Notes under the pieces: generated by a model
Told to the model about the DNA's origin: nothing
The model's database searches: none
Seen by the model: the letters and a program-made list of their open reading frames with translations, nothing else
Position numbers and translations under genes: made by a program
Assembly: GCA_903813345.2 (NCBI GenBank)
Contig: CAIIXF020000003.1
Span: 14,584,931-14,648,930, forward strand
DNA: 64,000 bases
Direction: 5' to 3'
Source: Owenia fusiformis
Taxonomy: Eukaryota > Annelida > Polychaeta > Sabellida > Oweniidae
Shown here: positions 21,184 through 46,310 of the stretch, one piece after another
Numbering within the stretch: position 1 is the stretch's first letter
Layout of the letters: each line of letters begins with the position of its first letter

Positions 21184-21522
21184 TATGAGCTAGTCAGAAA
21201 ATAAGTCAGTAATATACTCACACAACAATATTCCCCAATAAACAGCGCTACTTCATATTCATCGCTGATGTGACCTGCTGGCTGATTTATGAGATATTCA
21301 GCTAAATTTATGAGAAAATCCATCTACTTTTGTAGTTCTAATTTTACTCAATGGAGGGCGACACTTTCGAAATCCCCCACAATGCACTGAACATGACACA
21401 ATTTCCGGAGGTTTTGGAGGCTGGTTTGGAATTCAGAGCTCCGTGTTTGAAACAAGATTTCTGCAGTTCTACAGGAGACACGCACATAAACTAATGTATA
21501 CAAGGAGATAAATATATAGATA
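21184..21522 (+). promoter_or_regulatory. Presumed promoter and 5' leader of gene 2
   Basis: This stretch just upstream of the 13-codon exon is less AT-rich than its flanks, most clearly at 21350-21485. I see no convincing TATA box or initiator, so the transcription start is not fixed. The CAG at 21467 or at 21475 could be an acceptor of a further 5' exon, which would move the promoter upstream. Confidence 0.3.
21351..21494 (+). CDS. Candidate upstream ORF in gene 2 leader (47 codons)
   Basis: The frame starts ATGGAGGGCGAC, with G at +4, and closes at TAA 21492-21494, 28 nt before the gene 2 ATG. A stop just upstream (21339-21341) makes 21351 its first Met. The peptide starts MEGDTFEIPHNALNM and ends GDTHIN, and matches no family I know. 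The local sequence is richer in G+C than its surroundings, as expected of a transcribed leader. If translated it would probably reduce initiation at 21523. It could equally be a chance frame. Confidence 0.35.
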   Translation: MEGDTFEIPHNALNMTQFPEVLEAGLEFRAPCLKQDFCSSTGDTHIN

Positions 21523-21562
21523 ATGCCGAGACGCAAACAAATCTGCCCAAAACGGATGAAAT
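21523..21562 (+). CDS. Gene 2, first coding exon (13 codons + 1 nt): RRKQ NuRD-motif N-terminus
   Basis: The exon reads ATG CCG AGA CGC AAA CAA ..., giving MPRRKQICPKRMK, then one base and a strong donor (AAT/GTAAGT). An in-frame TAG at 21517-21519 fixes this ATG as the start of the frame, and an A at -3 favours initiation. Several zinc-finger repressors begin with M(S/P)RRKQxxP, a short motif that binds RBBP4/7 and recruits the NuRD deacetylase complex: SALL, BCL11, FOG, ZNF423/521, TSHZ and ZNF827. The MP start and the P-K-R that follows are closest, from memory, to TSHZ and ZNF827. A first coding exon of about 13 codons followed by a very large intron also fits such genes. No downstream exon is visible, so family membership is inferred from 13 residues only. 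Confidence 0.72.
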
Positions 21563-24500
21563 GTAAGTATATCTTTGTCTAAGTGCTTGGAAATATTTTC
21601 GAGGATTTGACTGAATCAGTCAGTTTGATATGTTTCTACAATCTTTGTTTACATATATATCAGGCATCGTGAGGACCAATTAATCAATGTGGAGTGGAAT
21701 GTATGTATGATTTTGAGATAGCAAGGAGTGTTAGGTTGAAAATTGATGATTTCTTACAAGGGTACAACTTGGCGTCTCTCTATTATAACACTGAAGACTT
21801 CACAGTTTGGATCAATCATCATTTCATCTCAACTGTCAATCAATGTCACTTTTAACTTGTGCAACAAGGGGAACAATCAATGCCGGTCATGCCCATAATG
21901 GAAACTGCAGGGCAAAAAACCCTTGATGTATTTGCATCATTCTTAGTAACATTTCACAGAGCTCTTGTATTAATGTATAGTTGACAGCACTGAATGAGTA
22001 GAGCGAAAAAGCAAATATAGAATTTTGCCGATTGACAGACAGACCTTTTATTGGCTTAACAAATGGCAAAGTTATATTTGAGTGAAGGACTAATTTACTG
22101 GTTATATTCTCTGCTAATAATCAATGCATTGGTACTTATTCTATAAATAAATGATGACATCTTGATCAAATGTTATATTTTGCGTTAATAATGTTATTAG
22201 AGACAAGACATTATGCAACTTAATTAATTTCTAACCTGGGTATTGTAACATATAAAACTTATAATAAAAGGTTACATTTTAAATTGCCAATTGAGATGCA
22301 ACTTGCGAAAAATTGGATGAGTAAGTGTTAAATATTAATAAAGGGTTCAGGTGATTATGTATGCATGGTACCAACTGTACTGTACGTAGATAAGTAGAAA
22401 ATGTTAGTGGCGTTTGATTGATGGGATCTGTTATCAGCGGCATGCTCACAAATAATGCCATTTATATTTCATAGTTGTCACTTTCTAGGCAAATAAATAA
22501 CACTTAATGGCTTCGATTCTGGGAAACATTGCCTATGTTATTTTTTTATTACTCAAAGTATGGTGTGGCACAATGGCAATGTATACTTGAGTTAACTACT
22601 TTGGAAGTACAAGTTCTTTTCATATACTATGCCAGTTCAACTTTTCCTCGTTGTAAAATATAACATTATGTCACTGTGAATTGGGGATTCTATTTTCCTG
22701 TGGTTACGGAGCTCTGTAGGGTCACATGAGTAATTATCTATTGTTCAGTAGGAGGCATTTATTGGCTGTGAAAGATAGTAGGCTATATTGATTTGACAGC
22801 GTGCTGAAAAACTCGCTAAAGTTACAATAATATCAATTGATGAAATTGGCAAGTAAAACAAGTAATTAGTCGAGTTTGTTATCCCACAAATCTTAATTTT
22901 TCTCTTATTGCTTGTCGAATCATAAGTGTGTTCGCGACACTTGAATAGAAATCTAATTCCTATGTCATTCTTTTCAATTAGGTAGTGAAACCTAGATGAA
23001 GGTAAACATCTTTCTGAAGTGACAGTCTCAAATGAATACTTATCTCTTTCAGACTATCTCTACATATTCAGGTTCAAAGGTCTATTATTCCTCAATTATT
23101 CCCATTTACACAATTGGTTCCTATTTTAACAGTTCAATAAATGTGAATACATTCAAATGTTGGACTCTACCTAGTTGTTCATTTCAGCGATGTTTTTGTT
23201 TTATGTAATCAGTAAAGTCAACTCATCGTGGATTGTTTTGGTGTTAGATCACTAGGTATAAATGTCAAAGTTAAAAAAGTTTGACTAAATCAGTTATCTC
23301 TCATAATGTCAAAATTTAACGGAGGTTTAGATTTAGAAGGTACAAACATTGATATACTCTTTTAGATAGAATTTAAGATAATTGAACAATATTCTTGATA
23401 TTTGGAATTTGTTTATATATAATTAACATTTTCCATATGGACACATGTAGTTTAACATTATTTTTTACTATTTTTCATGGTTGTTATATATAAAAATACA
23501 GTGAAAAATGAGAAATAAATGAAATATGTCACCAACAATAAAAATTGTATATGGATTATGGAAGAAAACAACACAATCAATTAGAACATCAAAGACAAAC
23601 AGCACATAATAGACTCAAATAGATTTTTTGCTTGTATGTAAAATTGTTTGGATCAATAAATCTTTATCGAAATAACCTAAAAAAAATACAAAGGACATTT
23701 AGGCATGGGCAGTAAATATAATGCCAGGTATATATTTTGAAGAGCATAGTCACGTCAATGGAGATGTCACTTTGTATGTCAGAGACCATTACCTGTTTTT
23801 ACCTGTTCGCAAAAACTAGTATTGTACATATGAAAAAGTATTGGAATTTGTAAGGTTTGGACTAGAGGTTTTAAGCACTTGGACTGTCACTAATTGTCAA
23901 CTCAAATGTCAAAACATATTTTGAAGATTAAACAATTTCTATTTACTATATAATCTAAATGTTGAAATTGCATTGGTTTTTATAATATCTGATTTTGAAC
24001 CTTGGCACTAAAAGTTATTAGTTTAAATCTGATTTTTGTGATATGAGAAATGCTGTTGTTTTACTAAATTGTAAATAATAGTGATTTGTCATGCCTTATG
24101 TCAGATTAGGCCCTTACATGTTATTGTTTATTTAGCAGATCTTTAGTGAAAAGACCAAACCATCTGTCTTTTTGCTTTAGAATATAGAATATATATCAAT
24201 ATGTATGTTTCACAATGATAAAACCCCAGAAATGTCAGACAATAGATGTTTTTGATTGATCAAATAGGTACTATTAAACAGATATTTATTTGTAAGGTCC
24301 TGAGTAAGATAAGATATGTGTAATAATCTCAATGTTTTTATTGGCAGGTGGTCACCTTGTGTACTATAATTGTAAAATCCAATATTTGTGTCTTCAAAAC
24401 AAAAAAGGTCAAGTATATGTACAAGGATACTGGAAAAACAAAACAAATCAAATCTATACATATAAATAATAGGTATCCATATTGAACCAATATTACGAAA

Positions 24501-24679
24501 AGTCAACAATTTTAGCACAAATGGCAACATTTGAATATATATCAGATATCAATATTTTCATTTTGCCATATTTATTACTATTTATACAATCAAAAGAGAA
24601 GAGGTGAATTCCATAGAATAGAAAGTTATTATATTAGTCCTTTATCACGCTTTACCAGCCTAAGGTTGTCGGTATACTT

Positions 24680-24843
24680 TAGTGTCGTCTGATGTGATAC
24701 TTATTCCCCTCCATTTCTCGATAAAATTTCAAAGAACTGGCTCTTTTTCTCGCATTTCAACATAACTTTTAGTGTTATTTACATTATTTCACTTTATTCC
24801 TTGCTAATTTCTCCCTTGTTCACTCTATATTTTGCAAAACAAA
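24680..24843 (-). repeat. Family A copy, diverged full length
   Basis: It runs from GTCGTCTGATGTG to CACTCTATATTTTGCAAAAC. ACTTTATTCCTTGCTAATTT is well kept. Confidence 0.55.
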
Positions 24844-25225
24844 AATGGGCACTTCGACATATCTTCGCAGTTGAGTGTCACATATCTGTCATATCTTGAC
24901 ATTTCATAAACCTACAATCGACACTCAACACACTATTATATAAACACGCAGTGTTTTCCAATAAGTTAGTTGTGATGTCTAATATAAAATAATGAATATC
25001 ATATTCGTAATAACATCTTATTAATACACAAATATACCAGAAATTGCCACGTTTTTTCCAACTTAACCTAAAGTCGCTTTTCTCAAGAATTTGATTTGAC
25101 ATTTTCAGGTATTTCTACAATTTTGAGTGTCATTTTTATGGCCAAATCTTCTACCAATTTGTTTATGCCAAGATGAAAATATGACCCCATTTAGAAAAGT
25201 ATTTAGTTCTTACCTGTCTTACAAA

Positions 25226-25290
25226 GAGACATTAAAAATGCAAAATAGAGTGAAAAAATGAGAAATTATTTGAAAAAGTAAATAAGCAAG
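25226..25290 (+). repeat. Family A copy, 5' half only
   Basis: AATGCAAAATAGAGTGAAAA and AAATAAGCAAG are kept. The AGAGAGAAAT/GCAGACGG end is absent. Confidence 0.45.
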
Positions 25291-25730
25291 AAACAAAATT
25301 CAAAATTCCTGTCATACTAGATAAAAAGTACAGTAGAAAAGGATGACAATTATTGTGATAGGATAATTAGATAAAAATTCACAATTAATATCAGTACATC
25401 ATGGCAATAGAATTTCTTTGTCTATCGTAAAAAATAAGATGTGGTGAAAATCCGCCTGGAATTTTACAAGAAATGAGGGGTTTCAATAAAATGTAATAAA
25501 GTTAGACTACCTTTGTATGCATTCAAAGTTATATTGACCAAGGTGAGATTTTATTCATGTACGTTCCAGTGTAGATCGCCAACAACCTGTCATTCTGAGA
25601 CAATAAGTACAGACACCTGTCATTCTGTTCAATATTTGTTGATTTTATTATTGTCGAGTGTAGACCTCTCTTAGAAGTGTCCCGAGACCGAAATGAATTG
25701 TTAAAGTCTCGTTACTTGGGTTTCTAATTA

Positions 25731-26288
25731 GACAGGTTCCAATTTCAGAATATCTCAAGGGAAAGGGTTTTTGAGGCATTTTTTAGAAAAAGCAACAGAG
25801 CTATTTTTTCTGGATCAGTTTTTCATGCTGATAAAGATATTAAAAGATGACAGCTCAACGGGGTGGTCACGACACTGAATTTTAGCGTTTTTACCCCCCT
25901 AGGGAATTATTTTAGGGGGTACTATAATATTAGTTCATAACTCAAAGGATATATAAACTATTGTTCTGAGTTCTACAGCATACATTGTTAGTACAAAGAT
26001 GAATACTACCTTAAAGTTATAGGTTGATATCTTTGTTGGTTTCGGAAAAATACAATTAATTAGAAAAAAATATGCAATTTTTGTCATTTTTTTCTTGCTT
26101 ATTTTATATTTGTAGCTTCAAGCAAATTATGATAACTTAAACAGCTCAAGGTAGTATTCTAACAACATTCCCAAGCTATGTGTGATATTGTAATACATCT
26201 ATTATAGTGATGAAGTACTATTTTGTAATTTTAATATGACTTTATAGTGCCCTACCCCTGGTAAATAGAAGAAAGTTGGTGTGGTTTT
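25731..26288 (+). repeat. Left arm of the long inverted repeat
   Basis: Landmarks are ATTAAAAGATGACAGCTCAA, GGGGTGGTCACGACACT and CATAACTCAAAGGATATAT. The similarity to the right arm ends just after GAAGAAAGTTGGTGTGG. Confidence 0.8.
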
Positions 26289-26603
26289 CTTCTGGTTTTA
26301 ACATTTTATTGTCTTCTTAGTTGAAGATACAATCAATTCTGTCAGCTAACCATGAGAAGCTTTACAATGGTTAACTATTCCCATGAATAGAGGGTTGGGA
26401 CCTCAAAAATACCAGAACTGTTAAGTTGCATCCTTGGGCAACCCTCTTCAGAGCATTTTCCTTATATCATCCGATAAAATCTGCAGGGGACACTATAATA
26501 AACCTATATATCTAAGATACTAGTAATGAAGATACTGAATTCAAATTTTCAGGATTTGGTCCTGGTATGATAGGTAATCTGTATGACAAAAAGAAAAAAC
26601 TCT

Positions 26604-26617
26604 GTTGCCATAGTAAC
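26604..26617. promoter_or_regulatory. Perfect RFX-type X-box
   Basis: GTTGCCATAGTAAC fits the RYYRCCATRGYAAC consensus at every position. It lies in the interior of the long inverted-repeat element. Binding is not shown. Confidence 0.4.
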
Positions 26618-28120
26618 AAGAATACGACACTATTTGTTTCCGAAGAAATGTGTTTTAAGAGGTTTTGTCATTCTCTTCATATTTTTAATTCTAAATATGT
26701 CTACAATGTGGGATGATTAAAATTATGGTAAAGTAATCTTTTCTATTGTTCTATTGTTCTCTAAAACAGAAGTTGCTACGCTCTATTTGTCAGGAAATTA
26801 AAATGGAAACTGAAAAATGAGTTTCTTCCTACTGAATAGCAATTTGGTAGACCAAGGCTGACACGCACAGGAGAAAACGTCTATCAGTTCTATGTCATTT
26901 TGTTGTTATTTTTTTTTATTTATCGTGCTCTAGGACTTATAACACCTAATGCCGAATCTTTCCAACTGCAAAGGAAGGCAAGATTTTAATAATGAACATT
27001 CATATATCTCAAATATATCAACAAAGATTTGGACAATGATGATGAAACTCTAAGGGAAAATTAGACGAAACATTAATGTGAGTGGTCCAAAAATAACACT
27101 TACATGTTTTGAAAAAGTTATGCTCTCGGGTGAATCAGTGCTCATTTAAGGATAGTCTGAATCAGGTGAATTTTTTAACCTAATTGTACCCCTCCCCCAA
27201 ACCCCCAAATTTTGACAATTGTCGAAAAGTGGCAAACAACAATTAAACAAACATCATTAAAGTTCAATATGGCTATTTTGCTTCTCTGTCATAAAGATAT
27301 GGTAAGATCTCAGGTCAATCAATAAATTTCAAAGTGACATTTTTAAAGTGACACTCTATCTTATGAAGAAAATATTATCGTATTTGAAGACATGTCAAAA
27401 TTTGGTTGAAATAATTTTGTCACTCCTGATTTGACCTGGAAAGGTTCAGGTAAGTTATCACAAACAATTTCAGACAGTTATATCTTTAATTATGACTATT
27501 TTCTGACCATGAAGACAGGAATACAGGGAAAATAAAGTCAATCGGACTCGGAGATATTTCACTAGCAATCAACCCATCAATATATTTTTTCAAAGTTGTT
27601 GACCTCATTTTCACCAAAAATGCAATCATTTTAACAATGTTTAATGCATTACTATTCTTTATTTTAATGTATCAAATAGCTCTTGAAAAGAAAACTGAAT
27701 TCCCTAAGATTAGTGTTCCCCATGTTATTTCCCCTTTGAAAAAATTCATGCTATCCATTGGTTTCAGTTCATTTTGGTCATCCAAATTCAGTGTCTTTAA
27801 AGTCCCTGGAGCAATCCACTTTTCCTCTTAGGAAATAGAACATGTCTCAAAGCATATTCTAATTATGCATTCAACAATATAATTAAAGGTTGCATCTTTG
27901 GTAAAAATTAGGTCAACATTTTTAGTAAAAAGTATGTTGATTGGGCCATTCCCTTTAATATCACTTAGGTCTGATTAATCATTATATTTACTTTTCTTAA
28001 AGATAATGAATAGATCTAAAAGATATACCCATGTTCATGGTCAGAAAATATTCATAATTCAAGTTAGAATTGTCTGAAGTTGTTTGCGATAACCTACATG
28101 CTCCTTTATAACATTATTAT

Positions 28121-28954
28121 GTAAATACCTGTGTAAGTGGAACACTCTCCGTTCTGCGTTCCACTTACTAGAAGATGTTCCACTTACAGAGGTTTTGGGT
28201 TCACAGGGAACATACAAAATCAAATATAGGATTTATATGTATCATTGGAAATATGATTCTCCCTTCATTACAGGGCAGGTATATACCATTAATAATCCAT
28301 TTATTTAACTCAAAAAGGTATCCGACATTCTTAATCCTCCTCATTCTGCCAAAAATGTTTTCTGATATTCTTAATCCTCCTTATTGTGCCAGTCTCAGGT
28401 ACAAGGATTAGGCAATTAAGTTTTAAAGACTTGTTCCGACTGTTAATAATTCAATTGTTTTTAAAGGACATTTTTAATCTTACTTATTAAGTTTGAAACA
28501 AACAGCAAGGGAGATATTAATTAGTGGTAGCATCACGTGTCCAGTTCTACAGGAGGTTAATCCAATTTTCTGAATGAAAATCTTATGAAATCTTAATTTG
28601 CTGATAATCAAATTAATTATTGGTTGCATCACATGTTGACCTCTACAGGAGGTTAATCCATTAAAATCCTAATTTGCCAATTATCACAGTATTACCTGTT
28701 TTCATACCCAGATATCATTGAAGGAGATTAATTCTGTTTACATATATCAATATTGAAATCTATGGAAATTGACTATTCCACTTAGCAGGTTAATTTTTCA
28801 ATATGGGGTGTTCACTGTTCAAGTTTGGAGGTGTTCCACTTACAGAGATTCAATTAACATTAAGTCAATGGGTTTTTAAAACGGGACTTTGAAAAGGCGT
28901 TCCACTTGGGAGGTGTTCCACTTACAGAGGTGTTCCACTTAGCAGGTTCTACTG
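28121..28954. mobile_element. Family B, ~830-bp variant nested in the long inverted-repeat element
   Basis: The left end is ACCTGTGTAAGTGGAACAC and the right end is GTTCCACTTAGCAGGTTCT then ACTG. Inside are two short tandem duplications, at 28321-28400 (TATTCTTAATCCTCCT) and 28520-28680 (ACAGGAGGTTAATCCA). Confidence 0.55.
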
Positions 28955-29253
28955 AACATTACTTGTGCATGATGACCACCGTAGTCTAGTTGCTCAAATG
29001 AGATCAATTGATGATTATAATGTTTAGACTTTATGTCAATGTCCAGACTGTATGCCAACCTCTCTAGTATGTGATTTCACTAGATTTCATTATGATACAT
29101 GTACTTAATTGAAAACTTACATATAAAATATCTTAAGTCCTATATTCTAGTAATAAATGAATTAGAATGTCACCTAACATTTGATGATGGTATGAATTTA
29201 TTGATTTGGTGTCTTTCAATACATGTTTCTAACTTAATGCTGCAAAATGATAA

Positions 29254-29794
29254 AATTCACCACATCCACTTTCTTCAATTTTCCAGGGGTAGGGCACTAT
29301 AAAGTCATATTAAAATTACAAAATAGTACTTCATAACTAAAATAGATGTATTACAATACCACACATAGCTTAGAAATGTTTTTAGAATACTACTATGAGC
29401 TGTTAAAGCTGTCATATTGTGCTTGAAGCTACAAATATAAAATTGGCAAGACAAAAATTGCGTATCTTTTTCCTGTTTTTTGTATTTTTCTGAGACCAAT
29501 AAGGGTATCAACCCATAACTTTAGGATAGTATTCATATTTGTACTAGCAATGTATGGTGTACAACTCAGAACAATAGCTCATATATCCTTTGAGTTATGA
29601 ACTAGTTTCATAGTACCCCCTAGAATATTTTCCTAGGGGGGTAAAAATGCCAAAATTTAGTGTCGTGACCACCCCGTTGAGCTGTCATCTTTTAATATCT
29701 TTATCAGCATGAAAAACTGATCTAGTAAAAATAGGTCTGTTGCTTTTTCTAAAAAATGCCTCAAAAACTTGAATTATTAGAATTGGAACCTGTC
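29254..29794 (-). repeat. Right arm of the long inverted repeat
   Basis: It is the reverse complement of the left arm. The GGGGTAGGGCACTATAAAGT at its inner end matches the left arm's inner end. Confidence 0.8.
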
Positions 29795-30015
29795 TAAATC
29801 CTAAGTTGAGAATGCGGCAATTTAATCAATATTCCTATCAAATTGGAGTAAAATCATTCGTGGCAATGCTCAAAAACACAAAACAAACCTTAATTACATG
29901 TAGTTTAGTTTCATTATGGCCATTGGAATTTCATTGATGTTTTTCATGCTTTTCTACCTTGAAACACCCTGGACAATTTTTTGAGATATTTCCTAAAATC
30001 CAATCTCACAATCAT

Positions 30016-30170
30016 AGATTACAGACTATATAGAATATATAGCCTGTATAGAAGTACAATAGACTACAGACTATATAGACTACACACTATATAGACTACA
30101 TAGCCTGTATAGAAGTACTATAGACTACAGACTATATAGATTACAGACTATATATAGACTTCTGACTACA
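30016..30170. repeat. AGACTATATAG-type minisatellite
   Basis: ATTACAGACTATATAGA and variants recur about every 17 bases. A longer block containing AGCCTGTATAGAAGTAC occurs twice, about 68 bases apart. Confidence 0.75.
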
Positions 30171-30229
30171 TGTCTGATTGCTCTATTCCTTGTCAAGTCC
30201 AATGAACTCAAATTCCACACTTTTTAACG

Positions 30230-30480
30230 AGATCGTTGTGACATCAATTTCACTTACTTCATCTTGAGATCTCCGTGTTAACACAATTGATCGACTGATA
30301 CAGCTTTTGTTGATTTTTATTCAATCTTTGATTGACAAGACGTCAATATGGTCTGATCCCACAGGCAATGCCAGCCTCTGAAAGCTCTTATAGAAAATGG
30401 CACATCGACGTAGATATCTTTTTCATTCAAGATAACAACATAAATAAATCTAATCGATAGATTTTAGACTTACTTAGAAA
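30230..30480. promoter_or_regulatory. Candidate intronic regulatory element
   Basis: This unique, repeat-free stretch has clustered transcription-factor-like words: TCTTTGAT (TCF/LEF-like), GACGTCA (CRE-like), TTTTATT and ATCGATAGAT. It is purely a motif impression. No conservation was tested. Confidence 0.2.
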
Positions 30481-30939
30481 TGCTATTGAGTCTTACATAG
30501 AAGTGATGAAAAATGGAAAGCTCGTTTTGGTATTTTTATTTTAAATATGCGATCAGCGATACAATTATTTGGAAGGAAGCTGAAGTAATCAACTTATCAT
30601 ATATTCTAGTAGAATCGGCAACCTTTTCATTTTCTTAGACATTTTGCACCACTAGAGGGTAAGTGTTTCTCGTATATATTTTCATATTAGTTTGAGAGTC
30701 GAAATAGACATACATTAGCTATATGCATGCATATATATATGTTAGATGTGCATGCACTTGTAGATGCATGGCAGATGCACAATGCACATGCACAAAAGAA
30801 GGAATTTATTTTTTCATTACTTGTTTTATTAAAAATACAATTCAATTATAAGTTGTTTATAGATATATGATGTGCATTTGATTGATCCAAACTTTATAGA
30901 ATTACCAAGATAAATACTTGAAAATAACGTTCTGTCAGT

Positions 30940-31113
30940 CATATTTTTAAACTTGAAATAGGACAGAAAAAAGTTTAAACTAAGAATAGAGTAAACAGAT
31001 ATGAAGTACATACTTTAAATTGTACAGACGTGTCAGAAAATCAGACACTTCATTCAAATTTTAGAGAGAAATTGAGTGAAATAAGCATGAGCAGACGGAC
31101 ATTTTAATGTTAA
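30940..31113 (+). repeat. Family A copy, one of the best preserved
   Basis: TTCAAATTTTAGAGAGAAAT is followed by GAGTGAAATAAGCATGAGCA and GACGGACATTTT. The 5' third is more diverged. Confidence 0.7.
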
Positions 31114-31354
31114 GTTTAATTTGATAACTTGGAGTGCCTGCCTTGCTAAAATACTTGTTGACATAATTTTAACAAAGCCACAAATGTCATTCTGTCAAAT
31201 GAGACATATAACAAATGCAATGGTAACTGGTAACAGTATGTGTTTATGAGAAGTTGACGCAGAGATGTAACTTATCCAAAAACGCATGCATAAAGCAGCC
31301 AAAATTGTCAAAACTGTCAAAGCATTTCCTCAAGTGGTCCCCTGAGAAATTTAT

Positions 31355-31522
31355 GCAATGGTCATGTTTAAAATGCAAAATATAGTGGAAAGGAGTGGAG
31401 TTAGTAAGATGGGAGTAAACCATGTGTGAAGAACATATGTTAAAGTATATAGAAATGCCAAAAAATCAGACACTTCTTTCAAATTTTGTGGAGAAATAGC
31501 GAGAAATAAGCATGTTGAGAGT
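31355..31522 (+). repeat. Family A copy
   Basis: GGTCATGTTTAAAATGCAAA marks the start and GAAATAAGCATG the end. The GCAGACGG end is altered. Confidence 0.65.
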
Positions 31523-31933
31523 GTGTTTTTGCATCGGGAAGTTTTTAGCTGGATATGGTTTTTAGCTAATACTTCAGAATATTATTCATTAATTGATGTA
31601 GTTTCATGGGAATAATTGCGATTACGATATTTTTGAAATTCAGACGATACAAAATTTCAAAAATGAGTCAAATCTGGATGAAACCGGTTTGCGTTAATCA
31701 TCTTCCCAAGGAGCAATTTCTCGTTATTTTAAAAATTTGCAGATTCCAGTAATATCAATACATCATTTCAAGGAATGAAAAATATTTTATTTGTGATATT
31801 TCATAAAGTTGGGAATTCCATGTGAGTATAAAATTTAGATTTATTTTGATGTTTATTAAATGATTTTGACTCTTTTTGTCTGTAACAATCGAAATATACC
31901 TCTGCTAAAATAACTTACAATGGGTGCACATAA

Positions 31934-32008
31934 ACATAAATATAAACTTTAAAGTATATAAAAATGGATAAAATCAGTCAGTTTTCAAATTTGAGGGAGA
32001 AATGATAA
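31934..32008 (+). repeat. Family A copy, central fragment
   Basis: Only the AAAGTATATAAAAATGGATA to GGGAGAAATG part is recognisable. Confidence 0.4.
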
Positions 32009-32775
32009 GATTATTGCATTGCTCATTTCATTTTAGTTCATTTATATTAATTAACATATCACATTTTTCTGTAATACATCTCAAATTGTTCAATATTATA
32101 ATGAAAAACAGTGGAAAAGGTAGAGATTTCAAGGAATATTATATCTAGGCATGTTATTAAAATGCCATATATTATCTGCCCCAATATGCTTAGCATATTA
32201 AGACTGGAGAGAACATAACTAGGGTGTCATTTTCGTGAATGAATTCAAATATGCAATACGTCTATCTGCAGACTCTTGACTTCGAGATAGAGTTGGCGGG
32301 TTTAAACCAAATATGCCAGTCATTCACTCTGAATTTCGACATGGAGAAAAAAGGGCACAAAAATTATTTGATTTATTATGGCATCATAGCAATTTGCAGA
32401 AGGCTATATTTTTTCATGTTACCTCTAACAGGGGGCTCGGTGTTATCAATCAAGTGAAACTTTGGTAGAATCACCCTTATTGATGTATAGTTGTTAATTT
32501 GTCATTTGACAGGCTTAAAAAGGAACATATCAAATAAATCATACTTAGAAACGAAAACATGCAGATGTGTTTTTAAGAGCAATTTTTAACTGCCATTGTT
32601 ACAATTGTTTGAATCATCAACATTAGAAGGGTCTCGACGTATTTTGAAAAAATGACGATTTTTTCCAAATTAACTCGACATTAATCAATCATATATGGAT
32701 CATTTGACTTAAAATGTGAAAAGGTTTTCTGTGGAAGCTGAAGGCGCTTTTACATTATCACAAAATCCCTATCAG

Positions 32776-32920
32776 TAAAATCTCATTTTAAAATACAAAA
32801 TATAGTTAAACAGAGTGAATAAACAAAAAACGAGATAAATAAACAAATAATCTAGATTCTATATTATGTAGAAATGTCTAAAAAATTGATACTTCAGTCA
32901 AACAAAAAGAGAAACTCAAC
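32776..32920 (+). repeat. Family A copy, diverged
   Basis: TTTTAAAATACAAAATATAG and TATGTAGAAATGTCTAAAAA are kept. Confidence 0.5.
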
Positions 32921-33081
32921 AGAATAAAAATTGAAGATGTATTTTTCAGCTTAGGTATTCTGATAACTAATGGGTTTGTATCAATTTCAGTTAGGCAGCC
33001 ATTAATAAATCTTCTATGGAGGAAATTCTTTGTTTGACTACAGTGTTCCCAAGTCTAAAATCACTCTCAATTCTTGTCAGT

Positions 33082-33240
33082 TCCACGCAATTTCTCCCTT
33101 AAAATTGAATGAACTGCTTAACTTTTTAGTTTTTTTATACAGTTTAAAGCGCGAACTCCATGCCTGTGTCTTTATTCCTTGCGACTTCCACTCCGTTTTG
33201 CTCAATTCTGGATTTGAAAATATGACCCGTGACGGTTTTA
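33082..33240 (-). repeat. Family A copy
   Basis: TTGAATGAACTGCTTAACTT, CATGCCTGTGTCTTTATTCC and ATATGACCCGTGACGG span the element. Confidence 0.6.
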
Positions 33241-34867
33241 TTTGGCGTACATACAGATATTTCAGTTAAGCGAGAATACAATGTGACAAAGGTGCTGTTG
33301 CATCTGCCTATATTATGCCATAACCATGTAACCAGCCTATTAGTTATGATCTACCTAGACACTATTAATACCCTGTGTTAAGTAGACTGGTTGTCGAACG
33401 AATTTGTGTTGATAGACAAGATTGATAGGTGTCCTTCTATCTTACTTACCATATTAAGTTAAGCAAGATGTAAGTTACATCGTAAATTAACCTAGAAGAT
33501 CTTTCTAGTGAATATAAATTTGGTCCCAGGGTATTTCTTCATTTCTAACCATTCATGCACAGGTGAATCTTGGAGAATTATTTTGTTTTTTTGATATGGG
33601 CCAGGGGGGGGGCTTTAATCCCTATATGTTAGACTAATCCAAGGTGAAAGGGACCTTCTATACATATAAACTAGCAGACTGAAATTCCTCAGAGTCTAGT
33701 TATGGTTATTCATAATCCGATTCTTAAAAAGGGTCATTCAATCCTATTTATTACATCATTTCTCAATTCCCTTTCCATTCTGTAGTTTGCATCTTGAAAT
33801 GTCACTACCCTGATGTTTAAACCAAAAGATACACTCTCAATATGAGCCATGATCTTCATTACCCCTAATTTGGATTCATTTAACTTGTCTTCTGAAAAGA
33901 TCGCTTTATCGACACTTTTTAAGTTTAAGAGAAACCTTTGAACTTGCAAAACGAATCAAGGCTGTGACAGCCATCGGCAGTGGGGGAGGGGCTTCTGAAC
34001 TTTAAAATTGTCTTAATTATTCAGAGGGTATTTTAGAACTAACCTCTGCTCAGGGTAATCCTGCATTTGTACGTCAAGAATATATGATACACAGCTACCT
34101 CTTCAAATGCCACCATCCCAATCTCAACTGCCAGTAATTTCCAAAATTTAACGTCGCTATATTTTATTTTGCGTAATTTATAATGCTTTAAATTACATCT
34201 CTTGTATGGTTATAGGGCCATCTTGACTGAGGAATGTTGGGTTTTTGAAGAGTTTTCGGGATTTATTAGACTATTTATTGCAAGTTATAGATGATCCCTT
34301 TCATCTTGGCAATAGCTGAGGATTTATTATCGAGATATGGTGAAGGCGGAAAAAATCACCCGTCTATGTTTGTGAAGTATTTTGCACTTTGGTTATATGA
34401 CTTGATCCACGTAGTTCATATAGAATTATACTATGACGTGTTTGTTAATTCGGATTATGTAGTATAAAAATGTGAAGGAATATGTTTAGTTCTTGATTTA
34501 TGTTCAGGACATGTCTTGAAAAATTACCAATGATATTTATGAGGGTTGTGAATATGGCAAAGTTGATTGAAGTTCAAGGTCAAATTTTTAACTGTTTGAA
34601 TAGCATGCTGTTTTCATTTTATTTCTCTTTTAATTTTCAAGCAGTGATATATATTCTTACTTTTCTTGATTTTTAAGAAATCTAGGCTACAGATGTAAAT
34701 ATTGTATTCCTCAGAATATTCTAAGATTGCCTCAATTGATCGCTGTTTTTGCCATAAATGAAGAATATTGACATGCATGTTAGCTATATTTTGAGAGTGA
34801 GTAAAAGTCATATTCTTTTGAATAAATGTTGTGTTCCTCGAAACAGTTTTTAGATCCAATAAATTTT

Positions 34868-34942
34868 ATTGATACTTATTTGCACCCAGTTGATACCCCA
34901 TTTGCACCTAATTGATACCATACCTTATTTGCACCCAGTTGG
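34868..34942. repeat. Short tandem repeat TTTGCACCCAGTTGATACC
   Basis: There are about three imperfect units. The TTGCACCCACTTG-like core resembles the inside of family E, so this may be a family E remnant. Confidence 0.45.
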
Positions 34943-35411
34943 GAATTGTGAAAATCATAAAATATATTTTGAAGTTGAATTTTTAAATTGAATTTAGAAA
35001 TTTCCTAGTCAAGATGGCATTTTTTATACGCCCCATCTAATTTATATCTGTGTTTCACATCACTCTTCTTCTTCCAGTTCAAGAAAACTGTAAGCATTAT
35101 TTCTTGGGTAATCCTAGATATGAGGTTAGACTTCCTATTCCCAATTTCAAAGAAGTTAGTTGTTAATAATTGTACAGATATAAAATATGGAACAATCTTT
35201 GTAATAGATAAAGGAATTATTTGATGAGTCTTTTTGATATGATCCCCTCATATGGTATTATAATGATGGACGTATTTCAGGTATTGATCTCGGGGTGTCT
35301 AGGTAATTGACACATATGACAACCTTTATTATGTTACATAGATCTCTCAGTGTATGTGTATCTTATGGGTTGATCTGAGCATGTCACTTTCATATGGTCG
35401 CGATTATTACA

Positions 35412-35565
35412 ATAATTCTCTGTTAAATTTGAATAAAGTACCCGATTTTCTGCCATTTCTGTACAATTTAGAGTGTTAACTACATGCTTATCTGCTTTAT
35501 TTCTCAAAAATTCCACACATTTTCACTGTATTTTGTATTTTAAACATGACTGTCACAACCATTTT
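35412..35565 (-). repeat. Family A copy
   Basis: TTAAATTTGAATAAAGTACC, CAATTTAGAGTGTTAACTAC and AAACATGACTGTC are in order. Confidence 0.65.
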
Positions 35566-36491
35566 TCATGACTGATCTATATCTGTATTCAAAGAGCCAT
35601 TCATGTATGTTATTTAACTCGTTTGAAGTAACTCAGCTGTAAGCAGGTGGAAGTAAGGTGGAAATAAATTGAAATAATTAATCGTGGATGATTTTTCAAA
35701 TTTTTTTCGCTTCCCGCTTTGACTAATTTAATTGTTCAGTGTCATTTCTCATTGAATTAGAATGCTGCATTACGCATAAATCAAATAGACGATTAATTTT
35801 TCTCATCTTTTTTTATTTTTTAAATTCAAAGGCTGATAAACTGATCAACCTTGACGAATCGGAAATCCTTTTAAAGCATACACTAAGGCTCGAGCAGGTA
35901 ACATTAACCTTTCTCATTATGTTTTTGTAGGAGTTGATAAAATAGAATTCGACTTTGATGTATTTTAACATATCATTTGTTTACAAAGAGATTTGGTTGC
36001 GATGATTGAAACTGTTTAAGTCAACAGAGAGTTTGAGCATTATCTTTAACATATCCATCCGCCGTATCTTTTACAATAATTTGATATTCTATCAATTTCT
36101 CTTCTGTCACTTATAATACTTTTCACATATTGGCGCTTTTGTAACAGATAGATAAGATGCTTTTTAGACCTGCATATACAAATATTATTTTCACACAACA
36201 AAAGAATGAAATATTATTTATGGTTCACTTTTCATTACAATTTTATAAAAGAAGATAGCAAATAGAAAATTACGGGAATTAAAGTCTGGTTGATTATGCC
36301 ACCGCAAAACAGCATTTGAGCTAAAAAAATTTCAAATAGTTAATATCTTCTTGTTAAACATATGACCAACACGATTTAGCCTAAGTGTGAATTCATAACG
36401 GATAAGTTGATTGACAATGTGCTTCTACTTGATGGTTCTCAACTTGATGGATCGCTATATAGAGTGACTAAAAAGATACACCACTGGGTGA

Positions 36492-36678
36492 ACTGTCGTC
36501 TGCTCTCACTTATTCCATTCCATTCTCTCTAAAATTTGAATAAAGTGTCTGATTTTCTTGCATTTCTATATAATTTAGAGTCTAACCTACATGCCTGTTT
36601 ACTTTATTTCATGCTATTTCCACTCTTTTTCACTCTATTTTGTATTTTAAAACACGACCCTTGTGGCATTTTATCAAA
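36492..36678 (-). repeat. Family A copy, full length and used as reference
   Basis: GTCGTCTGCTCAC, CTCTCTAAAATTTGAATAAA, CTACATGCCTGTTTACTTTA, CACTCTATTTTGTATTTTAA and CATTTTATC follow in order over about 187 bp. Confidence 0.75.
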
Positions 36679-36892
36679 GGGCAGTGTTATCTCTGACATA
36701 TTGAACATGATTCTCATGTGACTTATAGAAAATAACAACGAAGCTGTCCTTGCAACAAAAGAGAAAAGAATGTAATTTACAGATTAGATACAATCCTGTC
36801 AAATTTCTGACAAATACTTGAATTTGGCCTAAATAAAGGAATAGTTGGTCAGAATAGAATTTTCAAATTCAAATTTCTTCTATGATATGTGT

Positions 36893-37010
36893 TTATTATG
36901 TCACCACCACATAATGTTATAGTGTCCAACTTTTTGTGGATGGTGTTTGACATTCTTTGTTTGGCAATTGGTGTTTGGCATTCAGTGGTCATCGTCTGTC
37001 AGAGAAGTAT
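36893..37010 (-). repeat. Family C copy
   Basis: It starts TTATTATGTCACCACCACA and contains GGATGGTGTTTGACATTC and TTGGTGTTTGGCATTC, the reverse of the 7.2- and 7.6-kb copies. Confidence 0.55.
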
Positions 37011-37599
37011 ATCTCTTATTTGACTAATTTGGTGCTAGGGTCAGGAAAAAGGCAGGGAAAATCAAAATGGTTTTCTTAACCTTGAAAGATCAGGGAATTT
37101 CAGAATTCCTTCAAAATGGCTAAAATGTTCAGGTGATTTTAGAATTATAGGAGCTCAGGAATTTAAAGTGGGTAGAATTTTGAAATAAGGGAATTTTGAT
37201 TTAAAAATGTTGTGGCAACTCTATAATCTCCAAACATAGTTGACATTGTCACTATATAATTCTCTAAAGTAATTTGACGGATACAGCTGAATAAATTATC
37301 AGCAATTCAACACTTCAGAAAAATCCCTTCAGTGATTTGTTTAAAAAAAGGAAAGTTCATTTTACAGATGAAAATGCTGAAGTGTGACTGTCTGAATGGA
37401 TACAGACAATGAAATCAGATTTTGTCAGATTATGCAGTTTTTTTTCCTGAGAAGGAAACTAGCATCCATTTAGTATGTATTGTTTTATTTTGGCATTTTA
37501 TCAGAATATACAGATGAACATCTTGAGAGTGAACACTGCCAAGATCAGCTTTATATGCATATAACAGTTCAGATTAACAAGTTGTGATTTCATGGCTGG

Positions 37600-37690
37600 C
37601 TAGCCAGACAATGTGACCCAAAGTGTTCACATTGTGAGTCTTTCACATTGTGAGTCTTTCTCATTGTGAGTCTTTCTCATTCACAAGTTT
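37600..37690. repeat. Family B fragment with 18-19-bp tandem repeat
   Basis: CATTGTGAGTCTTTCTCAT is repeated three times after CCCAAAGTGTTCAC, a family B interior motif. Confidence 0.5.
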
Positions 37691-37754
37691 AGCTGTATCA
37701 TATAGAAAATATATGAAGGATGAATGGGGGACAAAGGTTCACATATAACATACA

Positions 37755-37931
37755 CAGTTAAACCTGTATACAGTATATTGAACATTTTTTGCCAAGAAAA
37801 AACCTCCAGTGTTGTAGGTGGTCATTGCAGGGAGGGTAATTAGTACAGAAGTCGATAGAGTATGGTGTAAGGGTGTCTACTAGAGACAGGTGTTCACTAG
37901 AGAGAGGTGTTCACTAAGACAGGTTTTACTG
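37755..37931. mobile_element. Family B pogo-like MITE
   Basis: CAGTTAAACCTGT opens and ACAGGTTTTACTG closes the element. TA follows on the right. The left flank is CA instead of TA. AGGTGTTCACTA is repeated near the right end. Confidence 0.7.
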
Positions 37932-38059
37932 TAGTAGTATTCTCCTCTGTATCATTTGAGTCAGTATCCTCTGCCACTACCTCCCCGGTAGTCCTTAAGT
38001 TTACCTAGATTCCTTAATCATTGTCTCTTCATCCTCCTAATCAGGTGTCCAGAATCCGT

Positions 38060-38290
38060 ACCTCCTTCTTCCCCCTGCTATAACCAATTTGGAAGCGCCC
38101 GATTTAACTGAATCACGTGATCTAATTATGCACAATGACTTACACATGATTTCTGTCGCAGTGTTGCGACAGCCAATCAGAATGCGAGTTCTTAATCGGG
38201 GAAATGCTAATTGCTTATCGTAGGGGGTAAAAAGAAAGAATATAGTCTGGATTTTGAAGCCCTGCGATCGGAGGATGTTGTCTCTTATTC
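38060..38290. promoter_or_regulatory. Candidate intronic enhancer
   Basis: This stretch, less AT-rich and repeat-free, has densely placed motifs: TCACGTGA E-box (38113-38120), CTAATTATGCA, and a perfect 7-bp-stem hairpin TGTCGCA-GTGT-TGCGACA (38154-38171). A CCAAT box follows immediately, then TTAATCGGGG and ATGCTAATTGC (POU/homeodomain-like). Such clusters are typical of regulatory DNA in introns of developmental regulators. Function is inferred only. Confidence 0.3.
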
Positions 38291-38897
38291 CCTACTTTTG
38301 TATATAATACATACATACATAATACAAGTTTCCCTTTCCCATTTTCAATTGACCCTCTGATAAGGCATCTTTCTTACACTAATTTTAGTTCAATTACATG
38401 GCAACAATCCTTAATCTCTGTCTCCCTCAACCCCCCAATCCCATCCATTAACTGTGATACATTTTATATCCAACGTTAAGACTCTTCTCTGAACATCAGC
38501 GGTTTGTCTTTCTTTTTATGTTTGATGTCCTCATGTCCCACTGAGCGTTAGGCTATATCTATACATATCCACAATTCTGTCGAATTTATCAATTGTCTAT
38601 TATTAAATTAGGCGACAGCAAATGACAGAACTTTGCAAAGATATGATAGGTGTACGAAAAGCGTATATGAAGTCATTAATTAAAATGTAGCATATGTTTT
38701 TCGCTCACGCAATAATGTCATTATCGTGAAGAACTGACGAGGCTAGATATCATCTCATCGGTCTTTTATACTTCTATCTGTCAATTTTCATTTTACGCTA
38801 AAATACATGTCAGTTATGAATAGTGCCACAATGTTCGCAACTGTGTTTAATTCAATAGGCTTGCTTAATACTAAATTCTCAGTACCTTGCTATTCTG

Positions 38898-39015
38898 TCA
38901 AAATTTGTAAAAGAGTGGAATTAGCAAGGAATAAAGTAAACAGGCATGACGTGTAAACTCCATATGCAATAAAATTAAACATTTCATTCAAATCTCACAG
39001 AGAAAGGCAAAAATC
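38898..39015 (+). repeat. Family A copy, central and 3' part
   Basis: AAGAGTGGAATTAGCAAGGA, ATAAAGTAAACAGGCATGA and TTTCATTCAAATCTCACAGA are kept. Confidence 0.6.
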
Positions 39016-39332
39016 GTTTTGTGTAGACAATCATCTAGAAAATGTTCATGGGGATTTTCTGAGTGATGACCCTAGTATAGATAAAGCCTTTAATAGTAGG
39101 AAATATCATGTACTAATCGATCATTTCATCACTAATGTCAGAGTCCGAGTCTATCTAATGCGAACTGTCAATCATAACAAATTATAAGCATAGTTTTATC
39201 TCCAATAACAGCACATAAATACTTTAACAAAATGTCAAAGTGTCAGAGTGTTATATCTTCGGGTAATTTACTATGAACTTGGTCAATATAGTGAAGTACG
39301 TGTGTTGGTCACTAGTTTCGAAATTACAACAA

Positions 39333-39503
39333 ATAGTTAAACCTGTGTACAGTGAACACCTATGGAGCCACAAAAATGTGAATACTACAGGTTGGTGTTT
39401 GCTACAGAGAGACAATTTTATACAGAGCTCAGTGGAGTATGTGCTGAGAAGAGGTGTTCACTAAACATAGGTGTTCGAGGTGTTCATTAAGACATGGTTA
39501 CCT
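39333..39503. mobile_element. Family B MITE, worn ends
   Basis: TAGTTAAACCTGTGTACAG opens it. GAGGTGTTCACTAA and AGGTGTTCATTAAGACATGG close it. Confidence 0.55.
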
Positions 39504-40379
39504 GTCATTTGTATTCATGGACTTAGTTAGCTATAAGATGTTACTTACATTTTACAAAAAAAATTTAAAAGTCTCTTTGCTGAAACTTGATATTATGCAA
39601 CATGGAGTTAAATAACATCCTCTTTGCCTCAAGTTTTACCTCGCCCTTATTTATATTTGCCTCTCCTATTCTTTTGATCCTGGTTGTGCCCCTGGTATTG
39701 AATATTTATGACTTTAAGGTTGTCCAAGCTTTGATCTTTGATAGGATTGCATACTGACATCTTGTCAAAACAATCCCAAAGTTGTTCTTCCCTTCCTACC
39801 TTAAGGGCAACAAAGTTTGAAATAAATGTAGGTGGTTTTACATGGCAGATGTCTAATTGCAGAGGAATGCATAAAACACATTATTTTTGTCTGGATAATG
39901 CCACAAGATAATTTAACGTCATTGTCTTAAAGTTTGAACTTCAAGATATTTATATGAACAGTACAGTGAAATTATCATCTGCTTAATATGATACAGTATA
40001 GGAAAGCAATTGTAGGAAGGCTTGCGCTTAAGGTGTCCCTTTTCTACAAAATTTAGAGTATAACTGTTTCTTTGCTTATCTCAGTCATATGCATTGTGAA
40101 ACTTGACTGTTGACTGTTTTGACATTTTTGCTTCTCTTGTAGCAGTTTTCTAAAAACTCAAAATCAATTGAATGTTGAATTAGACATTTGTAGATTTAAG
40201 CAGTCTGAGAAGAGTGTACATGTAAATGTAGACACTGTTATTCTCAAGTATTGATAAAAATATTTGATTAGAATGTCTATTGGATTGAAGTGTTTGAAGT
40301 TGTCCATCACCTGTTTGAGTGACGCCGGGGCATAATTCCTGAGAAGAAAATCACACGATAGATACGTTAAAAACATCAA

Positions 40380-40532
40380 ATAGAAAGGAATAGAAAGATA
40401 TTAGCAAGAAATGAAATTGGTATCCATGAAGTATAAACTCTATATTTGATAAAAATTAAATCAAAATAGACACTTTATTCAAATTCTAGAGAGAAATTGA
40501 CGAGATTAAAATATGAGCAGACGGACATTTTT
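40380..40532 (+). repeat. Family A copy
   Basis: ACACTTTATTCAAATTCTAG, AGAGAAATTGACGAG and GAGCAGACGGACATTTTT are intact. Confidence 0.65.
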
Positions 40533-40639
40533 AGAATTAGGTTGAGACAGGCAGATGGTGAAGATGACACTGTCTTTCACAAACGTCTTAAATCAATCTG
40601 TAAAAATATTATCTAATAAGATAATAATAGTGATAATAG

Positions 40640-40808
40640 CGCATAAGCCATCTGTTGAAATGTACCGAATATAATTATTGATTTGTGTTTCTTGTCATGT
40701 CTTAAAATGTAAGGTAAATGGGGAATAAGCATTGATAAATGTGAATAAAAAGCCAATTTGTGATTCTTGTCATGTATTAAAGTGCAAGGTAAATGGGGCA
40801 TAAGCATT
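40640..40808. repeat. Tandem duplication of ~70 bp
   Basis: TTCTTGTCATGTCTTAAAAT then GTAAGGTAAATGGGGAATAA recurs as TTCTTGTCATGTATTAAAGT then GCAAGGTAAATGGGGCATAA. Confidence 0.65.
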
Positions 40809-40814
40809 AGGTAA

Positions 40815-40925
40815 TGTGAATAGAAATGGTATCGAAAATAAAATCAAGTACAACTCTAAATCGTGCAAAAATACCAGAAAATTGGGAAATTCTGTTATAT
40901 TGGAGAGGAATTCAAAAGTAGTTGA
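40815..40925 (+). repeat. Family A copy, diverged
   Basis: AAATAAAATCAAGTA, CTAAATCGTGCAAAAATACC and GAGAGGAATTC retain the order of family landmarks. Confidence 0.4.
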
Positions 40926-42179
40926 TATAGCTGCTTTTTAACAGAATAATAGGTTTACTTTAAAATGACTGAGGAAATAAGTAAACAGTGTTGAAGAGAA
41001 CTTGTCATGAAATGTAAAATTGTTAACTTTTATTAATATCATCGAGATTGGGTGTCATTACTCATTGGTATAAAGTATACTACTACATGACCCACAAACT
41101 TTTGAACTATAGAATTTCTGCCATTTATGAAGTAAAATATATTGTTCATGTCAACACAATAGGTAAATAAATTACCCTATCATTGAGCATAAGGCTGTAA
41201 AACAAACCCCTAAGTTATTAATCAAGGCAAAAATTATCTAAAATACTTTTTACACGGCACCTCCCAAAACATTTATTCTTTCAAACGTGAGTTTTTTTGT
41301 TTTTCATGCTCTAAAATCTGTAAATGTTTATTTTGTTGAAATTATGAAATAACTATTGATTAAACTTGTTTGTTAGTATTATCTAATGGTATCTTCATTC
41401 TTGTTTTAATGTAAAGGTTTGACAAAAATGTTCCCATGTGATATTTTTTGTAAAGGAATAACATATATGATTTCATGCATATGAATCATACTCTATAATG
41501 TTGCAATAAATATATAAATTGAAATAAATTATTTTTATTCGCAATTGTTATAATATATGGGCCTGTATGATTAACTGAATATGGAAACAATAGAAATAAT
41601 AATAACAAAAGCAATTTATAATAAATCCAGTTAGTATTTTTTTAATTACAACATCTCAATATCAATATGTCATTCTCATTTCTTTCACTGGAGTTTTGAA
41701 TGAGATACCAAATTTTCCTTTACTCCTCTATAATGTTGTTCTCAATGTCAGTTTTGTGACTGTTTATTGCAATCTTTAGACTATGAATACAACTTTCTCT
41801 CTGTAATTGCAATTTCAAAGATGATCTCATTGTCATTTACAATCTCATTGTCGTTTACACATTTTATCAAGGTCATGCCTGTGTACAATTTTAAGATCTC
41901 TATCAAAGTATAAAGTTAACACATCTAAGCAAGAGAGAACTGTACATGGGTTGAAAACGTTGGAAACATGGGTTCATTAAACTTACCCACAGGCTGCCGA
42001 GGCAACAAATCATATGGAATCATTGAAAAAGTTCAGAAAATGTCAGATAATGAGTTAAATGTCACGTCATTGATAAATTGGGGAACTCAATATGCACATC
42101 TATCAGTGTTGGATGATGTGATATTGTACACACTCTCTCATCCATCTTACACTGATCTTTGCTGCCCTCAGGTGCCTTA

Positions 42180-42475
42180 GGGGTTCTTTGGGGATTTTTG
42201 GTGCTCTCATAGTCCTTTGGAGATCTCTCGAGGTTCTTTGGGGATGTTTGTTGCCTCCAGAGTCCTTTGGGGATCTTGCATCTTGCAGGGTCCTAGGGGT
42301 TCTTTGGGAATGTTTGGTACTCTCAGAGTCCTTTTGGATCTTTTTGGGTGCTTTGGTGATGTTTAGTGCTCCCAGAGTCATTTGGGGATCTTGCGGGTTC
42401 CTTAGGGTTCTTTGGGGATGTTTAGTGCTCCCAGAATCTTTTGGGGGTATTTTAATGTCCTTGGGGGTTGTTTTG
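42180..42475. repeat. GGTTCTTTGGGGATGTTT minisatellite, ~5 units of 50-65 bp
   Basis: Units contain GGTTCTTTGGGGATG, AGTGCTCCCAGAGTC and TTTGGGGATCTTGC. The array is G-rich on the plus strand and stop-poor. Open frames of 125 and 157 codons on opposite strands cover it and have no family resemblance. Confidence 0.8.
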
Positions 42476-43059
42476 GACAAATGTCATCCATGGGCATCAA
42501 TATGGCCATGGTATTCTTTGGGGACTGTCAAGAACAGAATGCAAGTAGTAAGAGGTATGGTGTCAAAATTCCAAATTAGACAAAAAGACAAAATGTTCAG
42601 AAGTGGAAATCAGATAAACAATAATATGAGCACTTTTGATATGTATAATATATCAAATTAGTTTTATTGTCATTTGAAATTTGAGGAGCTTCAGTTTCCA
42701 GACATTAACAGTTTTCACCAATGATGACAATGGACCGTTTGATATTACACACAAAGATCTCATTCAAGTATAAACGTATATATCATTGTGTTTTAATAGT
42801 AGCCTAATGTCATTTCCTTTGAAAGAAAGCTTGGTGAATTCTAGAATGAAGGACAAGGATAAGTAATATTGATGTCATTTATTTCATTTATTTTATTTTT
42901 GTAGCAAAGTTTGATTGAAATACCTGATAATAGGCTACGGCTATAGCCCCCCCTCCCCCTTATATTTTTCTCGGGTATTTGTATTATGCATGACTATTGT
43001 ATGGTTAATTCATAGAAATCTCGCTCAAATATAAAGTGACAGGGCAAGATTGAAAGGTA

Positions 43060-43250
43060 CCAGATTCCCTTGTTCTGGTATGGGGCCTTCTACTTAACTT
43101 CCCGCTTTATGAACAAATGGCACATCACCATGGAAACGACAGTGATAAATAAGTAATAAGTATGATAAATTTCCCACAGTGTGGAAGCCATTTTTTCTCC
43201 CCGAGCATTATTTTCGTAGTCATCTGACATTAAACTGGCACTTCTAAATA
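43060..43250. promoter_or_regulatory. Candidate regulatory stretch
   Basis: A non-repetitive, less AT-rich segment with CCATGGAAAC (half X-box), TGTGGAAGCC and GTAGTCATCTGAC. Weak, motif-only evidence. Confidence 0.15.
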
Positions 43251-43399
43251 ACTTTCAATTTTTCATTTGTGATCGTAACAGACATTTGTAAATATCAACT
43301 ACTCAGGACAGCCACTCAATTTAATATGCCCTTAAACAGGGAATGGGCATGATCTCAGGCCTACCCCTACATATGAAATCATGACAGATATGTTCTTAA

Positions 43400-43552
43400 A
43401 TTCTAAATCGCAACGAGATAAAATGATTTATTGATAAATTAGTTAGATAGGCATGAAGGTAACACATTAAATTATATAAAAATGACAAAAAATCAGACAC
43501 TTTATTCAAATTTTATTGAAAAGGAGTGGAATGAGCTCGAGCAGACAGAGAA
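43400..43552 (+). repeat. Family A copy
   Basis: AAATTATATAAAAATGACAA and CAGACACTTTATTCAAATTT are kept, ending CGAGCAGACAG. Confidence 0.6.
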
Positions 43553-43962
43553 TTTCTGCATGTACTTCATTTCGAAGGTCTCTGAATTTTTGAAGTATGA
43601 TTCATATTTGCTTCGACATTAATTAATTTTGTTTTGAAATCGCTACTTAGATTGATTTATTGAGGAGGAACTTAGTAAGTATGTCTAGTTTCCATTTTGG
43701 TTATACTCAGAGATGACCCAAACAATCAACCTCCTCTTTTGGTTCTTGATTATGATTGGTCATGCCAGGTCACATGATTGTCCGAATGAATTTTGGGCAA
43801 GTGGTTTGTTTGGTTTGTGAATATGTATTTTTTGGTTAATAGATTGTGAGCATATGCTTGGAGAGGCATGTAACACTTGATAACATGTTTGATGAATAGT
43901 CAGCACTCCTCATCAATTTCTATTACCTTTGCGTTGCATATCTGAGACATAAAAGCGTAACG

Positions 43963-44125
43963 GCCATGATTTGAAATGCAAAATAGAGTAGGACAGACAG
44001 ACATGAGGGACAAATGACATACATACATATGTAGTAGATACTCTAAATTGTATAGAAATCACAAAATTCCAAGCACTTTAATCAAATTTAAGAGAGGAAT
44101 TATGTGATATCAGCGTGACCAGATT
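43963..44125 (+). repeat. Family A copy
   Basis: GGCCATGATTTGAAATGCAA, AATAGAGTAGG and CTAAATTGTATAGAAATCAC mark it. Confidence 0.6.
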
Positions 44126-46230: not shown

Positions 46231-46310
46231 TTGAATTGATTTTGGTTACAGTGAAGGTGGCGCTGACATATGATAGAATATTATGGCATGGAGAGGATAG
46301 ATTCAACTTG

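Follow-up and report, generated by a model that had tools for sequence, protein, structure and literature searches.

The 40 bases at positions 21523-21562 of the Owenia fusiformis DNA analysed here (the window, a stretch of 64,000 nucleotides; G000:C3:14584931-14648930 of the 498 Mb genome) are very probably the first coding exon of the single-copy teashirt gene (tsh/TSHZ), predicted to be spliced from 21562 to 88290 and to recruit the NuRD complex. Positions beyond the end of the window are given in continued window numbering.

A probable short first exon encoding a NuRD-interaction motif

The coding part of the exon was found to consist of an ATG and 12 sense codons, with a single base left over to start codon 14 (Table 1). 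The earlier note on this DNA had described a 13-codon frame that begins after an in-frame stop and runs into GTAAGT, and this was confirmed by the TAG, separated from the ATG by a single codon, and by the donor, which directly abuts the 40-base exon. Across all six reading frames, this exon gave the only match to M[SP][RK][RK]K in the window, and the 46-base sequence of exon plus donor occurs once in the 498 Mb genome.

The first residues, MPRRKQICP, place RRKQxxP at the extreme N-terminus. In the accessible part of PMC11602157, this N-terminal consensus is described as binding the acidic pocket of RBBP4, and FOG-1, SALL1, SALL4, BCL11A, ZNF296 and ZNF827 are named as its carriers; the same RBBP4-binding motif is reported for BCL11B in the part of PMC6644156 available. 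Neither TSHZ nor teashirt occurs (0 occurrences of each) in that part of PMC11602157.

Expected numbers were calculated using a first-order Markov model of the window composition, counting both strands and any frame. The model predicts 2.7e-5 occurrences of M[SP]RRKQxxP per window, falling to 2.2e-8 when a strong donor is also required at precisely 13 codons plus 1 base, though these window-based figures overstate the surprise somewhat because the spot was chosen after the whole window had been read. GTRAGT was found at +40 after 1 of 3051 ATGs in the window (both strands). The Teashirt frame located downstream, with its acceptor of matching phase, is evidence independent of how the exon was picked. 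A PDB search with the short MPRRKQICPKRMK peptide, which covered chains of at least 20 residues and hence no RBBP4-bound peptides, gave no match, nor did tRNA and Rfam searches.

Table 1. Features of the predicted teashirt gene and further genomic loci matching M[SP]RRKQxxP
Feature	Position	Strand	Description
In-frame TAG	21517..21519	+	One codon (ATA) before the start codon
First exon, coding part	21523..21562	+	MPRRKQICPKRMK plus T of codon 14; N-terminal NuRD/RBBP4 motif RRKQxxP
Splice donor	21563..21568	+	GTAAGT, predicted to open phase-1 intron 1
Intron 1, part in window	21563..64000	+	Part of a predicted 66,727-base intron; no convincing plus-strand C2H2 exon
Second exon	88290-91927 (G000:C3:14673220-14676857; L004:4290-7927)	+	Predicted; split codon followed by 1211 codons and a stop; PLDLS and Teashirt zinc fingers
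L023			MSRRKQLKPHHYL; putative first exon, 13 codons + 1 base + GTRAGT
L024			MSRRKQSNPKPIK; putative first exon, 13 codons + 1 base + GTRAGT
L025			MPRRKQICPKRMK, the teashirt exon; 13 codons + 1 base + GTAAGT
L027			MPRRKQANPTAVK; putative first exon, 13 codons + 1 base + GTRAGT
L044			MSRRKQAKPRLWK; putative first exon, 13 codons + 1 base + GTRAGT
L028			MSRRKQAKPRHFQEDED...; M[SP]RRKQxxP, frame open over the stretch shown
L039			M[SP]RRKQxxP; GTATGT after 17 codons + 1 base, phase 1

A Teashirt reading frame downstream

The 242 kb downstream of the exon (the remainder of the window and the next 200 kb) was scanned for zinc-finger frames, and one plus-strand frame with core-type zinc fingers was identified, a Teashirt open frame spanning 88088-91927. 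A hydrophobic-core finger pattern gave 2 plus-strand hits, both in this frame, and 19 minus-strand hits, with 0 in a reversed control. Looser plus-strand matches in the window at 29034, 29040 (overlapping) and 48354 were rejected as zinc-finger exons as they lack the hydrophobic core, the first two being additionally flanked by stops. The earlier note had named the absence of a downstream plus-strand zinc-finger exon, together with a lack of spliced reads from 21562, as a finding that would speak against it; no convincing exon of this kind is present inside the window, and the Teashirt frame lies beyond its end.

The best solved relative of the exon-2 peptide was Teashirt homolog 3 (PDB 2dmi; E 5.2e-12; residues 410-496), followed by a second-best PDB match with an E value of 0.059. 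Finger-pattern hits were located at residues 426-447, 484-506, 537-559 and 1160-1181, and visual inspection placed a C2HC finger, CESCGDKIDTSVFVEHVRLC, after the third and before the last of these. According to the part of PMC8173736 available, the Tio/Tsh proteins of panarthropods have a unique five-finger set, four of them N-terminal (ZF4 being C2HC) and one C-terminal. The Owenia frame shares with Teashirt/Tiptop (TSHZ) this layout, with the C2HC finger fourth and a C-terminal fifth, as well as a TSHZ3-like finger pair, a PLDLS motif (the CtBP motif; residue 245) and its single-copy status (a search of the 498 Mb genome gave 1 match, with all 7 candidates scored). The family of the zinc-finger gene behind the NuRD-motif exon is very probably Teashirt. 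The earlier note had left the family open while favouring a ZNF827- or TSHZ-like gene; the phase-1 acceptor leading into the Teashirt frame bears out the latter, and the ZNF827 guess was not upheld.

Vertebrate TSHZ proteins have a homeobox. In contrast, no homeobox was found in exon 2 among 13 Pfam families at E values up to 1, therefore the Owenia gene is not of the vertebrate TSHZ form, which is the only form that this result excludes. The abstract of PMC8173736 terms Drosophila Tsh homeodomain-containing, while the results section, as far as available, defines the family by the five fingers. Set against that description of Drosophila Tsh, the missing homeobox is a loose end.

The predicted splice junction

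The acceptor at 88290 (TTGCAG/GT) is in phase 1, the same phase as the donor at 21562, and the intron between donor 21563 and acceptor 88290 would measure 66,727 bases. A phase-1 acceptor followed by a C2H2 exon, which the earlier note had proposed to look for downstream, was thus found 66.7 kb beyond the donor and outside the window, and the phase-matched Teashirt frame supports, in class, size, phase and donor, its reading of the 13 codons as a first exon that gives a zinc-finger protein its NuRD motif. Among the 18 in-frame phase-1 AGs listed between 88182 and 88644, the acceptor context AGTTGTCCTTTATGTATACTTGCAG/GT came out top in pyrimidine share (0.70) and is a CAG, and the GC content steps from 0.25 in the 202 bases before 88290 to 0.42 in exon 2. 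Joining 21562 to 88290 creates a TGT codon (Cys14) and one frame of 1225 residues, the predicted protein beginning MPRRKQICPKRMK-C-LEDGSEGKDD...

Other features were observed in the window part of the intron. Tandem arrays are present at 46302-47071 and 49671-50280, with units of ~96 and ~165 bases, respectively. Long open frames on both strands at 42103-42661 overlie a 115-base tandem repeat (42178-42394), and are for that reason probably not genes.

RBBP4 and the predicted recruitment of NuRD

An RBBP4 orthologue was located in the same genome at G000:C11:12.025 Mb. In its first coding stretch, 47 of 49 residues are identical to a solved RBBP4 chain and the remaining 2 are similar. The available part of PMC11602157 names E126, N128, E179, E231, N277 and E319 as the RBBP4 contacts of the motif, and all six were found to be conserved in a comparison with human RBBP4. 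Both the motif peptide and a matching RBBP4 pocket are therefore encoded in one genome, as judged from sequence.

Transcription would run rightward, with the GTAAGT at 21563 spliced over 66.7 kb to the TTGCAG/GT at 88290. If translation begins at the ATG of the short exon, the exposed N-terminal peptide would dock in the acidic pocket of RBBP4, which could then bring the NuRD deacetylase/remodelling complex to sites that are bound by the Teashirt fingers or to which these are recruited, and repression would be the predicted outcome. PLDLS in exon 2 is a separate motif that may bring CtBP; in the part of PMC12469452 available, Tsh is reported to have PLDLS and to co-immunoprecipitate with CtBP.

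In FOG-1, SALL1/4, BCL11A/B, ZNF827 and ZNF296, as in the Owenia exon, RRKQxxP stands right after an N-terminal Met-Ser/Pro, and the Owenia genome also encodes a matching RBBP4 pocket, to which the exon peptide is predicted to bind, whereas the zinc-finger body of these proteins is unlike that of Teashirt. Drosophila Ush-B, the FOG homologue, is similar in that a short N-terminus, isoform-specific in the fly, supplies the motif before a common zinc-finger body, but it belongs to another gene family (PMC7891773, in the part available). In the same part of that paper, the motif is attributed to two Drosophila proteins, Ush and OAZ, and the word teashirt is absent from the paper.

Alternative readings of the exon

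Optional use of the NuRD exon in teashirt is plausible. Alternative promoters would then yield Teashirt proteins with and without the motif, a refinement of the best explanation that we consider a reasonable possibility though short of probable. The exon-2 frame stays open for 202 bases upstream of the acceptor and includes in-frame ATGs, thus a protein lacking the NuRD-motif exon could also arise from it, but the stretch concerned is intron-like in composition (GC 0.25). Precedents are available in the accessible parts of two papers: the gene structure of Drosophila ush predicts alternative promoters and splicing, with only Ush-B, which has a unique short N-terminus with the FOG motif, binding dNuRD (PMC7891773), and the transcripts of mouse Tshz2 come in forms with two and with three exons (PMC8760052). 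It is also conceivable, but unlikely, that the exon belongs to teashirt with at least one further small exon between 21562 and 88290, in which case the junction would differ. An intron of 66.7 kb leaves room for unseen short exons and the scan covered C2H2-bearing or long frames only; however, donor and acceptor agree in phase without any further exon, which is what a direct splice from 21562 to 88290 would need.

Assignment of the exon to another gene of the NuRD type further to the right, such as a ZNF827 relative, would fit the MP start and PKR, which we take to be ZNF827-like as well, but it is improbable given that the Teashirt frame is alone on the plus strand of the 242 kb in having core-type zinc fingers. 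Least credible of all is a chance open frame or dead remnant. Thirteen codons alone are weak evidence, but the motif and donor are expected together so rarely in the window, and are followed by a matching acceptor and a Teashirt frame, that this reading has very little to recommend it.

Other putative motif exons in the genome

The genome was searched with MxRRKQxxP, Ser being permitted at the Arg positions, and 25 matches were found compared with 12 in a backwards control, many of the 25 on repeats. Readings resembling MYRRKQSGP-, MKSRKQSGP- or M*RRKQSGP- account for the repeat-borne loci L022, L026, L029-L033, L036-L038, L040-L043 and L046, and a reverse-transcriptase-like GPLCFLL.IND...ADDS was seen on the opposite strand at L029, L030, L037 and L041. 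M[SP]RRKQxxP was present in 7 of the 25, compared with an expected 0.21 if the whole genome had the composition of the window. In five of these seven, including the teashirt exon (L025), exactly 13 codons plus 1 base are followed by GTAAGT or GTGAGT (Table 1), an arrangement with GTRAGT expected 1.7e-4 times genome-wide, again from the window composition. A looser search that did not require the proline yielded 11 matches, with 9 in the control; these were the same seven and four more, none of which (0/4) has a donor at +40.

The 60-base flanks of the seven motif exons are 17-43% identical in pairwise comparisons, indicating that they are not recent copies. The six motif loci other than the teashirt exon are at C1:12880456(+), C3:4131388(+), C3:23093730(-), C3:24804616(-), C8:38130233(-) and C15:5613(-). 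At L028, a 1183-residue C2H2 frame is located ~50 kb downstream on the same strand, while L044 sits on a contig of 50 kb, of which 5.6 kb lie downstream. L024 looks FOG-like by its motif alone; a search of the genome for FOG with a PR-domain model and a FOG finger, neither of which had a positive control, gave no match. A haemocyanin model, again run without a positive control, likewise had no match in the genome.

Genomic neighbourhood of teashirt

To the right of teashirt, a cluster of minus-strand C2H2 exons (L007-L011) extends over 119.7-162.3 kb in continued window numbering. This cluster looked ZNF236-like; however, a ZNF236 block matched best at C8:27468974 and the cluster was only 14th in the list, thus this test does not support ZNF236 as the neighbour. 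To the left of the teashirt exon, multi-finger frames were observed on the opposite strand (8698-15332). Among the genome matches listed for a human ZNF407 block (140 of 1746 candidates scored), the best was at 9585-10379 with 161.6 bits, the next reaching 142.1. The deletion table in PMC5057431 lists the human genes ZNF407 ZADH2 TSHZ1 SMIM21 ZNF516 ZNF236. As ZNF407 and TSHZ1 thus lie close together in the human genome, the pairing of a ZNF407-like frame with teashirt may be an ancient linkage.

Implications for the Teashirt family

NuRD-motif exons are already known as a kind, and the Teashirt exon adds a further member. Titles and the starts of abstracts were surveyed, covering few subscription papers, and in these no tie between Teashirt and NuRD through RRKQxxP, no NuRD motif in a homeobox-less Teashirt and no uniform 13-codon phase-1 exon shape was found to be described; nor did these titles and abstract starts mention any Teashirt of an invertebrate as carrying the NuRD motif. 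Two points could surprise specialists: the motif occurs in a Teashirt lacking a homeobox, and the five putative exons are uniform in having 13 codons and ending in phase 1.

Vertebrate TSHZ proteins presumably also start with MPRRKQ, encoded by an exon of the same size. Gene callers readily overlook exons of only 13 codons, and Teashirt models from such genomes may therefore omit the NuRD-binding end. The motif in an invertebrate Teashirt suggests a direct link between this selector gene and NuRD outside the vertebrates.

The five M[SP]RRKQxxP exons may front different zinc-finger genes, the 13-codon phase-1 exon being an old portable module that acts as an optional NuRD switch, a proposal that we make tentatively and regard as somewhat doubtful. 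The identical size and phase of the five exons make it testable whether one exon spread among zinc-finger genes. If the proposal is true, one exon would have been copied among zinc-finger families before the main animal lineages split, spreading NuRD recruitment, and Teashirt would already have had this exon by that time.
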